From Terriglobus aquaticus (GTDB lineage Bacteria; Acidobacteriota; Terriglobia; Terriglobales; Acidobacteriaceae), in the NCBI RefSeq assembly GCF_025685415.1, contig NZ_JAGSYB010000001.1, positions 1,178,001 to 1,242,000 of the forward strand: a DNA stretch of 64,000 nt, written 5' to 3'. A program made the position numbers and the translations under genes. Positions 1-26,580 of this stretch are shown here, piece by piece. The notes beneath the pieces were generated by a model. It was not told where the DNA came from. It made no database searches and saw nothing but the letters and a program-made list of their open reading frames with translations. Every line of letters begins with the position of its first letter. Positions within the stretch are counted from its first letter, which is position 1.

Positions 1-1610
1 TGGCCGATGATGGGCTGCTGCACACCCGAGATCGTCACAGTGCCGCTCTCGTTCGAGATCTCCATCACCATCTTCAGCGTGATCTCGCGATCCTGGTGCA
101 CGGTTGGCGTCATCTCAATGTTCACGCCCACATCGATATAGGTGAACTGCGTGTTCACCAGCGAACTCACAATGGCCGTCGACGCGCCACTCGAAAATGA
201 TCCCGTAGCGATCGGAATACGCGACCCGATCTTCAACGTCGCCTTCTGGTTGTCCGTCGCACGTACGCGCGGGTTCTGCAGGATGCGCGTATCGCTGTCC
301 GTCAGCAAGGCGTTCACCGCGGCCGTACCAATGCTCACCGCGATGTTCGAAGCCGTGAAGTTCGCCAGGTCGTTCAACGAGGGGTTGGTGGTCGTGCTGC
401 TGGTGCTGGTTCCCGTCGTGGTGCTGCTCGTGCTGGTAGCGGAACTACTGTTCAGCGTCGACGATGTCCCGTTGTTCAACTGCGTTCCCAGTTGCACACT
501 CTGTGGCAGCGTAATGCCCAGGTTGCGCGTGCGGGTCTTGTTCACTTCCAGCACCGCAACGTCCACAACCACTTCACTGCGCGGCCGGTCCAGGTTATTC
601 AGCAGGCTTTCCACCAGCAGCAGTTGGTCGGGCGTGGAACGCATCACGATCGCGTTCTGGCTCGGCACCAGGAAGATCTTCGTCTGCGGGTCCAGCACAT
701 TACGCAGCGCCGTCAGCAGTTCATTCGCATCCGCCGCCGAAGCCGCGTTGGAAATGTAGAACGTCTGCACCGCGACCGTGTCCAGCTCTTGCCGCTTCTG
801 CTGTGTGTTCGCCGCAACAAAGATCGTGTTGCTCGTCACCGGCTTCCAAAAGGTGCCGCTGATCGTGCCCAGGATGCGCAGAGCGTCGTACAGCGACACG
901 TTCACCAGGTCCAGCGGAATGCGGCGAGACGTGTAGTCCGGGTCGAAGATCACGTTCAGCCCTGCGCTCTTCGCGATCGCCTGGTACAGCACCTTGGTGT
1001 CTTCCACCACGTGCAGCGTCACTGGCGCATTATCCACCGGCTTCAATTGGATCGGCCCCGCTACCGTCGACGCCGCGGCAGACGGTCCTACCGGCGCCTG
1101 CTGCAGCAGCGCCGCGCCGGGCGCGTTGCTCATGTCGCGCTCAACCGCAACAATCTCCTGCTGCGCCGTCTGGTTGCCGCCATCGATGGCCAGCGCGCGC
1201 TGAAACTCCGTCAACGCGCCGTTGAAGTCGCCGCTCTGGCGCAGGACCCTGCCGCGATCCACATGCGCCGCCGCGGCTGCAAACCGCACCCGCTCGAACT
1301 TGGTCTTGTAAATCAGGTTGTCCGGCCGCTGTAGAAGCGCCTGGCGATAGGCCTCGAACGCAGCGTCGTAGTCCTCATGCGCTTCCGCATCGGCGCCGCG
1401 CTTGGCCCAACTCTTCGCCGACTGCCCATGCGCCTGCACCGGCATCGCCGCGCCGCATCCTATGGCCAGTGTGGCGGCCAACGCCAGCCCCGCGCGCCAA
1501 CCTGGCGCCCGCCGCTCCGTGCCGCGGCATACGTCGGATGAGGGGACAAGCCCACCGCTAAGCGGGAAGCGAAACGGCCACGTTGCGCGGCGCGAACCTG
1601 CGGAAATCAA
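1..1610 (-). CDS. TPR-containing secretin (GspD/PilQ family), cut by left edge
   Basis: Outer-membrane secretin of a type II secretion or type IV pilus system, with its C-terminal part beyond the window. The minus-strand frame reads a hydrophobic leader (LALAATLAIGC), a short TPR region (EDYDAAFEAYRQALLQRPDN; then DFNGALTEFQRALAIDGGN), N-domain repeats (SLYDALRILGTISG; SNAASAADANELLTALRN) and the start of the secretin beta domain (NLGITLPQSVQLG; ILQNPRVRATDNQKA). A Ser/Thr/Asn-rich tract of about 33 residues lies at roughly nt 376-480. The start is unclear: no ATG or GTG precedes the leader in frame. I extend to a TTG at 1610 that has an AGGGG motif upstream; an ATG at 1530 is one frame off. 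It is a paralogue of the gene at 60738-62846. Confidence 0.85.
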   Translation of the reverse strand, partial: MISAGSRRATWPFRFPLSGGLVPSSDVCRGTERRAPGWRAGLALAATLAIGCGAAMPVQAHGQSAKSWAKRGADAEAHEDYDAAFEAYRQALLQRPDNLIYKTKFERVRFAAAAAHVDRGRVLRQSGDFNGALTEFQRALAIDGGNQTAQQEIVAVERDMSNAPGAALLQQAPVGPSAAASTVAGPIQLKPVDNAPVTLHVVEDTKVLYQAIAKSAGLNVIFDPDYTSRRIPLDLVNVSLYDALRILGTISGTFWKPVTSNTIFVAANTQQKRQELDTVAVQTFYISNAASAADANELLTALRNVLDPQTKIFLVPSQNAIVMRSTPDQLLLVESLLNNLDRPRSEVVVDVAVLEVNKTRTRNLGITLPQSVQLGTQLNNGTSSTLNSSSATSTSSTTTGTSTSSTTTNPSLNDLANFTASNIAVSIGTAAVNALLTDSDTRILQNPRVRATDNQKATLKIGSRIPIATGSFSSGASTAIVSSLVNTQFTYIDVGVNIEMTPTVHQDREITLKMVMEISNESGTVTISGVQQPIIG

Positions 1611-25142: not shown

Positions 25143-25217
<75 letters not shown>

Positions 25218-25293: not shown

Positions 25294-25368
25294 GGCGCGG
25301 TACCCAAGTGGTAAGGGAGAGGTCTGCAAAACCTTTATGCGTCGGTTCGATTCCGACCCGCGCCTCCA
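25294..25368 (+). tRNA. tRNA-Cys (anticodon GCA)
   Basis: A complete 75-nt cloverleaf with encoded CCA. The acceptor GGCGCGG pairs with CCGCGCC, the anticodon loop CTGCAAA gives GCA, and the T-arm is GTCGGTTCGATTCCGAC. It lies 76 nt after tRNA-Gly and is probably processed from the same transcript, which ends at the terminator at 25403. Confidence 0.97.
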
Positions 25369-26305: not shown

Positions 26306-26345
26306 CCGCAAAAGCAAAGGCCCACACCGTTTCCGGTGCAGGCCT
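26306..26345 (-). terminator. Rho-independent terminator upstream of thiG
   Basis: On the minus strand an outer stem AGGCC/GGCCT and an inner stem CACCG/CGGTG, with a GAAA tetraloop and a small internal loop, are followed by TTGCTTTT. It ends whatever is transcribed from 26550 leftward, before thiG. Confidence 0.65.
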
Positions 26346-26545
26346 CTAACTTTCGGTGAACTGTTGAGATTGACCTGAGGCGTCCACTCTTGCGGAGGGC
26401 CTCGGCGGAGTACAGCCGAAACGACGTTCAGTTCGGCGAAATGCCAGGTCTAGAGCGAACGCTCTAAGCCTCAGTCACCTCACGTGTTGAACCACATAAA
26501 CTACTGTCAGATTTCATAGGCTGGATCATCCTCCTTTCCCGTGTA
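26306..26545 (-). ncRNA. Candidate small structured RNA or thiG leader with a mini-ORF
   Basis: No protein gene covers this stretch, but a transcription unit can be drawn on the minus strand. It has the promoter at 26580-26551, then AAAGGAGG (26537-26530), then an ATG at 26529 or 26517 opening a 21- or 17-codon ORF that ends at 26464. Next come a hairpin TAGAGC/GCTCTA (26451-26466) and a branched fold closed by GACCTG (26372-26377) with CAGGTC (26445-26450). Inside it lie GCCGAA/TTCGGC (26415-26437) and GAGGC/GCCTC (26377-26403), and the unit ends at the terminator. It matches no RNA family I recognise. It may be a leader controlling thiG or an independent RNA. Confidence 0.4.
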
Positions 26546-26550
26546 AGAGT

Positions 26551-26580
26551 GTTGTACGCCTTGCTCCGGGGGTGGTGCAA
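26551..26580 (-). promoter_or_regulatory. Putative sigma-70 promoter of the small-RNA locus
   Basis: On the minus strand TTGCAC (26580-26575) and TACAAC (26556-26551) are 18 nt apart. The -35 hexamer is identical to that of the tRNA-Gly promoter at 25102. Confidence 0.4.

Follow-up and report, generated by a model that had tools for sequence, protein, structure and literature searches.

A predicted small RNA gene of Terriglobus aquaticus, homologous to the Actinobacterial RNA Ms_IGR-5, with a mini-ORF framed by conserved helices

The minus strand of the window (the whole analysed stretch of 64,000 nucleotides from Terriglobus aquaticus) displayed, between positions 26580 and 26310, a promoter, a ribosome-binding tract complementary to 16S rRNA, a mini-ORF of 17 codons, a structured domain and a terminator, in this order. 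Read from 26580, the succession is TTGCAC-18-TACAAC, CACGGGAAAGGAGGATGATCCAGCC, the mini-ORF, a hairpin at its stop codon, a branched domain, the tail AATCTCAACAGTTCACCG and the terminator. Judged from its sequence and that of its relatives, this ensemble is predicted to be a free-standing RNA gene, some 230 nt long, and a homologue of the Actinobacterial small RNA Ms_IGR-5. Its features are as follows, with the main evidence in brackets.

26551..26580, minus strand: promoter, TTGCAC (26580-26575), 18-nt spacer and TACAAC (26556-26551) (coordinates; position conserved among relatives)
26540..26543, minus strand: 5' strand of helix P1, CACG, at the putative 5' end of the RNA (covariation)
26519..26537, minus strand: Shine-Dalgarno (SD) AAAGGAGG followed by (A)TGATCCAGCC, together matching the complement of the 16S 3' end except for one extra base
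26464..26517, minus strand: mini-ORF MKSDSSLCGSTREVTEA, ATGAAA..TAG, starting at the second ATG and stopping at TAG (frame conservation)
26481..26484, minus strand: 3' strand of P1, CGTG (covariation)
26472..26479, minus strand: 5' strand of helix P2, GGTGACTG, within the last ORF codons (pairing score against swapped partners)
26451..26466, minus strand: P3 hairpin, TAGAGC-GTTC-GCTCTA, beginning at the stop codon (covariation)
26400..26448, minus strand: P4 region, CCTGGC ... GCC(G)AGG (RNAalifold consensus, counts)
26373..26405, minus strand: P5 hairpin, CGAGGC ... GCCUC (minimum-energy fold of 26479-26354)
26354..26371, minus strand: conserved 3' element AATCTCAACAGTTCACCG (conservation, fold)
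26363-26355, minus strand: 3' strand of P2, CAGTTCACC, part of the 3' element (pairing, fold)
26310..26347, minus strand: intrinsic terminator AGAGGCCTGCACCGGAAACGGTGTGGGCCTTTGCTTTT (14-pair stem in the whole-RNA fold)

Two tRNA genes were located downstream of thiG, at 25143-25214 and 25294-25365 on the plus strand.

An initial annotation, made from the letters alone, had proposed a small RNA or a thiG leader with a TTGCAC-18-TACAAC promoter and a terminator. Both signals are present, at 26580-26551 and 26347-26310 (minus strand). A generic promoter/terminator scanner run on the window listed neither, and they were assigned because their position is conserved in relatives. A strict TTGAC-17..20-TAnnnT motif, which the window's own TTGCAC/TACAAC fails, stood directly before P1 in 42 of the 55 Acidobacteriota relatives (letter-shuffled mean 0.015, maximum 1 of 55). 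Examined by eye, a GC-rich terminator hairpin of differing sequence occupied the same place in all 30 loci of the family set described below, with a short T tract in some of them.

The gene thiG adjoins on the same strand in the window and in many relatives, and this neighbourhood is what speaks for an RNA acting as leader or attenuator of thiG. Genes downstream varied among 12 loci, with AhpD/Rrf2, toxin-antitoxin or TonB-like genes standing before thiG; other downstream genes were a TonB receptor, MBOAT, ruvC, guaA and mgtE, and once an opposite-strand ORF (names read from translations, without profile search). A constant position upstream of thiG was thus not observed, and the terminator hairpin intervenes in 30 of 30 family loci. 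We consider a thiG leader very improbable and rejected it. Likewise, Rfam gave only the two tRNAs at gathering in the window, and neither a TPP riboswitch nor another known thi leader for the RNA stretch at E up to 5. The sub-threshold names ctRNA_p42d (on the terminator), MIR477, Thr_leader, Vault and sR14 were taken as chance.

Under an E limit of 1, a blastn search recorded a match in 85 of 101 genomes; many of these matches were weak and chance-like. The family set was composed of the window and the loci of its 29 best relatives (30 in total; L002-L008, weak own-genome matches, were left out), and 19 family sequences provided a covariance model, R1. At E up to 0.01, R1 found a single match in each of 82 of 250 genomes of the class, and in the window's family 56 hits with two misses among those listed. 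Forty weaker or divergent places were also retrieved. A second model, R2, was built from the promoter and 5' module of 55 Acidobacteriota sequences, a diverse set selected for a recognisable GAGG signature. It matched 67 of 396 genomes of the phylum, other classes among them, again at a single place in each.

Reference genomes were also scanned with the pattern GAAAGGAGGTGRTC-N25..55-GAGGTGRC, which is blind to frame, start and stop. At least 120 stretches were obtained, with 112 unique among the matches listed. The phyla among the matches listed were Actinomycetota (88), Acidobacteriota (18), Planctomycetota (3) and Myxococcota (2), together with one match each in Nitrospinota, Nitrospirota, Zixibacteria, Sumerlaeota and Ignavibacteriota and 4 without assigned phylum. 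The same layout was found by this frame-blind scan in Actinomycetota, Myxococcota, Nitrospinota, Zixibacteria and Sumerlaeota. Model R2 scored 39 of 41 chosen pattern loci, mostly Actinobacterial, at E up to 0.01 (L165 and L222 were missed), and matched Streptomyces and others with E down to 1.6e-14. Searched in the own genomes of 20 pattern loci, it marked a single place in 16 (one partial, at E 0.007) and did not recover L222, L244, L270 and L185, the last of which is a probable chance match. The RNA usually occurred once per genome, in several very different bacterial groups.

The ribosome-binding tract AAAGGAGGATGATCCAGCC (26537-26519, minus strand) had been described in the initial annotation as complementary to the 16S 3' end apart from one additional base. 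This match was right, and it is the single occurrence in the window even when 3 mismatches are allowed (shuffles expect 0.01). In the 4.16 Mb genome, AAAGGAGG[N]TGATCC was found at two places, namely here and in the complement of the sole 16S match, the host 16S ending in ..GGCTGGATCACCTCCTTTCT. The segment GRTCC was retained in 50 of the 55 Acidobacteriota sequences and the extra base varied among relatives. The GAGGTGA of the P2 5' strand is also an anti-SD complement. A chance copy of the 16S 3' end, or a fossil of it as the initial annotation had also suggested, would account for a 19-nt match with one insertion. The window gave no match to the 16S family RF00177, no similarity was found beyond the ribosome-binding tract, the sole genomic 16S match lies elsewhere, and the extra base is variable; above all, the tract is found across phyla at a constant place of one structured RNA with promoter and ORF. 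This conservation refutes the fossil, to which we give practically no credit.

The tract is best read as a very strong Shine-Dalgarno sequence for the mini-ORF and, mainly in other phyla, as the 5' strand of an additional helix, P1b; its UGAUCC may also pair with 16S in the cell. In P1b, GRUCC pairs with GGAC/GGAU upstream of the P1 3' strand, which was observed in 68 of the 88 unique listed pattern loci (swap control: mean 49.6, maximum 58 of 300). P1b is mostly missing in Acidobacteriota (at least 5 bp in only 14 of 88 unique sequences), and this second role of the tract reads as applying outside most members of the phylum.

The signature and an in-frame mini-ORF ending in REVTEA or a close variant occurred in all 30 family loci. 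All 55 Acidobacteriota sequences likewise had a frame open from start to stop, the stop lying 5 codons after the start of GAG in 54. Of the 17 to 21 codons initially annotated, the 17-codon ORF (26517-26464) was retained, whereas the 21-codon version was abandoned because its upstream ATG, located within the tract, is missing from several family loci or stands out of frame there. Since the wide set, used for the swap controls of P1, P1b and P2 and for the peptide comparison, was pre-filtered to a stop 15 nt after GAG, stop statistics were drawn from unfiltered pattern hits. Among the 112 unique listed ones, stops before GAG amounted to 1 in 897 codons in the GAG-GTG frame, against 66 in 911 and 165 in 961 in the other frames. 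A stop exactly 15 nt past the frame start was present in 108 of these 112 hits; for each of the two other frames the count was 0. TAG, TGA and TAA all serve as this fixed-place stop, which points to termination and not to a mere RNA word. The mini-ORF, mostly 11-22 codons long, begins inside P1 and ends within the domain closed by P2.

As to possible starts, CTG was the first in-frame one in 15 of the 112 unique listed pattern hits, and L165, L171, L180, L210 and L231 were without ATG, GTG or TTG near the SD.

The encoded peptide behaved differently from its frame. In 38 close pairs, compared without a formal neutral model, differences by codon position were 26/33/31, with 17 synonymous and 57 non-synonymous codon changes. 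On these comparisons, frame, start and stop are selected as far as sequence can tell, and the peptide seems to bear no sign of selection, its amino acids apparently not being conserved beyond those codons that double as helix strands. A tiny protein gene, with the peptide as product and the RNA structure regulating its translation, would agree with the maintenance of open frame, start and stop, with the Ser-rich variable parts (23.4% Ser) and with EV[AT] close to the C terminus. We hold it for rather improbable: the codon counts display no third-position excess, the conserved C-terminal codons are the P1 and P2 strands, and in three putatively homologous Planctomycetota loci the ORF uses a different frame over the same nucleotides. 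These loci (L195, L244 and L270) carry GAAAGGAGGTGRTC...CGAGGTGGC with a mini-ORF reading, by eye, ..QRGGVV, ..HRGGAL and ..QRGGCF, respectively; R2 recovered one of the three in its own genome (L244 and L270 were missed). Dual-function small RNAs such as SgrS and RNAIII also carry a small ORF, whose peptide is a product. The small ORF is thus common to both, whereas the peptide sequence displays no conservation of its own here.

L195 and L244 also displayed a downstream ATCACCT, which is like the 16S anti-SD and could pair with their own SD.

Two helices surround the ORF. In P1, the CACG of the 5' end pairs with the CGUG that precedes AGG. Over the 55 Acidobacteriota sequences, 95.5% of the cells were paired and 30 were changed on both sides, a level reached by 0 of 500 shuffles; its fourth pair was GC in 23 sequences, UA in 13, CG in 5, AU in 4 and other in 10. 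In the wide set, pairing over the 4 bp was perfect in 46 of 82 unique combinations (swapped mean 13.0, maximum 22 of 500). P2 joins GGUGRCUG to CAG.YACC in the 3' element. Within 270 nt, the best complement to GGTGRCTG scored 18.9 on average, against 16.5 in shuffled regions, and fell on the 3' element in 145 of 211 cases under a strict rule (a looser rule gave 181/211 but admitted other sites). Because these counts start out from the best complement, searched with a bulge allowed to move, they overstate pairing, an effect from which the swap control alone is free: 100 unique pairs scored 19.2, against 17.3 for swapped partners (maximum 17.75 of 200). In the looser set, the fifth pair was AU, GC, GU or UA and the seventh UA, CG, UG or GC; within the window's family P2 hardly varied. 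The 6-bp hairpin of the initial annotation corresponds to P3 (26466-26451), for which covariation within the family amounted to 14 cells changed on both sides (0 of 500 shuffles as high). The stems are conserved in relatives, with covariation in P1 and P3 and a P2 that exceeded its swap control. Together with the promoter, the terminator and the homologues in many genomes, these covarying stems support the small RNA initially suggested.

In L012, from the window's genus, an A to G change in GGTGACTG accompanies CAGC for CAGT in the 3' element and looks compensatory. It was dropped as proof of P2, GGTGACTG also occurring with CAGC, the bulge being moved, in L022, L028, L030, L032 and L049.

Folding gave a mixed picture. 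The minimum-energy fold of 26479-26354 was closed by P2 (z = -3.4) and paired the P4 region differently from the RNAalifold consensus. The fold of 26552-26300 had z = -3.9, with 0 of 200 shuffles equally stable. The whole-RNA minimum-energy fold contained neither P1 nor P2 and preferred a hairpin inside the ORF; the 5' part folded alone (26543-26464) was no better than shuffles (z = -1.2), also without P1 and with the hairpin inside the ORF. This whole-RNA fold and the strict P2 recount slightly lowered our confidence in the explanation favoured below.

Concerning the branched fold of the initial annotation, the domain is present, but its closure by GACCTG/CAGGTC is disfavoured. This stem was set aside, together with the RNAalifold stem TGACTGAGGC/GCCTCAGGTCA, for GGUGACUG/CAGUUCACC, which was preferred because it is kept across phyla and used by the minimum-energy fold of 26479-26354. 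Within the family, TGACTGAGGC/GCCTCAGGTCA and GGUGACUG/CAGUUCACC were indistinguishable, and the whole-RNA fold displayed neither. The RNAalifold pairing (26477-26468 with 26381-26371) is an alternative to both P2 and P5, equally conserved within the family, and possibly represents a second state of the same RNA.

In another reading, the RNA acts on the ribosome itself: by binding the anti-SD and adjacent nucleotides of 16S, the extended tract would titrate or park 30S subunits, with the mini-ORF as a by-product of this binding site. The complementarity to the host 16S tail is indeed extended, GRTCC is kept although most Acidobacteriota sequences have no local helix partner for it, and a second anti-SD complement, GAGGTGR, stands shortly before the stop. 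Extended SD-aSD helices are moreover real in S. aureus, where, according to the available part of the source, pairing proceeds past GGAGG toward the start codon; the S. aureus sites are on ordinary mRNAs, whereas that of the window is on a structured RNA with a mini-ORF (PMC13009471). A pure sponge needs neither an open frame, a start codon or a fixed-place stop codon nor helices flanking the ORF, and we regard this reading as unlikely, although it has more in its favour than a tiny protein gene.

Relationship with Ms_IGR-5 (RF02471) was established through intermediates. In the window, RF02471 gave nothing at gathering and nothing at E up to 5, and its 45-bit cut-off was not reached; the Rfam search that had been recommended thus left the window unmatched beyond its tRNAs at gathering, but did connect homologues elsewhere. 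RF02471 passed this cut-off in 12 of 18 pattern loci. Several loci from other classes of Acidobacteriota were matched as well, L137 over the cut-off at 47.3 bits (44.5 in its genome) and G430 at 50.6 bits. Among 199 Acidobacteriota genomes 8 were matched, all at R2-marked places and outside the window's family. The 14 control genomes gave no match, so the RNA is not universal. RF02471 and R2, which come from different phyla, marked the same places in 8 of 8 cases. This coincidence, together with the extension of R2 to Streptomyces, argues for common descent via intermediates. On this sequence evidence we regard the RNA of the window as a divergent branch of the Ms_IGR-5 RNA, beyond the present reach of Rfam.

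Both share the order of their parts, namely ACAC..GGAAGGAGGUGGUCC, GUGAGGUGGCUG, central hairpins, GCAGUCACC and a terminator. The Rfam structure leaves ACAC and GCAGUCACC unpaired and therefore holds neither P1 nor P2, and the window differs from RF02471 by its extra tract base, a longer distance from SD to start and the lack of P1b. Ms_IGR-5 was reportedly discovered by Li and others (RNA, 2013). Its occurrence as a transcript is supported, in the accessible parts of the respective sources, by an overlap of IGR-5 with the M. smegmatis ncMSMEG15794c (PMC10454040), ribosome-protected reads on MS_IGR-5 homologues of M. abscessus and M. smegmatis (PMC4974804), RNA-seq in S. lividans (PMC8079986) and an sRNA transcription unit in S. 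avermitilis (PMC8780764). No function of Ms_IGR-5 was found in the literature searched. The epithet "undescribed" of the initial annotation accordingly fails for the Actinobacterial form, present in Rfam as Ms_IGR-5, but holds for the Terriglobia branch, the mini-ORF logic and the helices, which were not found in the literature searched. What is new here are the covarying helices P1 and P2 around the ORF, the open frame, the fixed stop and a peptide without sign of selection.

A more distant resemblance was observed with CC2171 (RF01867), a Caulobacter small RNA that the available part of the source also lists for Mesorhizobium (PMC5596092). RF01867 scored 21.1 bits in the window (E 0.02), short of its cut-off of 75, and exceeded this cut-off in 0 of 21 genomes. 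Both display a 5' GAAAGGAGGUGAUCCAGUG. Read by eye, the printed consensus of CC2171 has an open frame between the GUG that follows GAAAGGAGGUGAUCCA and a UAA, and CAAC/GUUG could stand in the place of P1; in contrast, neither a GAGGUGRCUG word nor an CAGUCACC element was seen. CC2171 is a possible Alphaproteobacterial cousin.

Frame, start and stop appear selected, the peptide apparently not, and the last codons double as helix strands. This combination is most simply explained by a fold that one ribosome, halting at a fixed place, opens. The likeliest reading, to which we assign a probability of roughly 0.52, is a small RNA in which translation of the mini-ORF opens the fold. The selected feature would be the act of translation. 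A ribosome moving over these few codons would have to open P1, then P2, and would halt at the stop codon, its mRNA channel then occupied by the P2 5' strand. Opening of P2 would free the conserved 3' element AAUCYC..CAGUYCACC. The RNA would thus alternate between two states, one closed, with P1, P2 and terminator stacked, and one opened by the ribosome. It may in this way report ribosome supply or translation state to a reader of the 3' element, and this element may act in trans.

In RNAs that have P1b, the 16S tail could first pair with the SD as a toehold and then extend this pairing through UGRUCC, thereby displacing P1b; the mimicry of the entire 16S 3' end by the tract would be explained in this way. 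For the window in its present form, such a toehold does not apply, since P1b is missing in most Acidobacteriota. A broader proposal, made here more tentatively than the opening of the fold by translation, is a widespread class of translation-gated RNAs sensing free ribosomes or termination, in which the ORF would be maintained for its translation and its termination at a single point instead of its peptide, a single ribosome would open both P1 and P2 and set free the conserved 3' element, and the 16S tail would act as toehold-displacing strand, from the bulged SD into the GRUCC strand.

A small RNA filed as Actinobacterial thus appears to be a single branch of an RNA that is distributed among several phyla. 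Its open frame and exact stop, associated with a drifting peptide, are unusual and point to translation as the signal, and the wider alignment may give Rfam a better-supported structure and a broader model.
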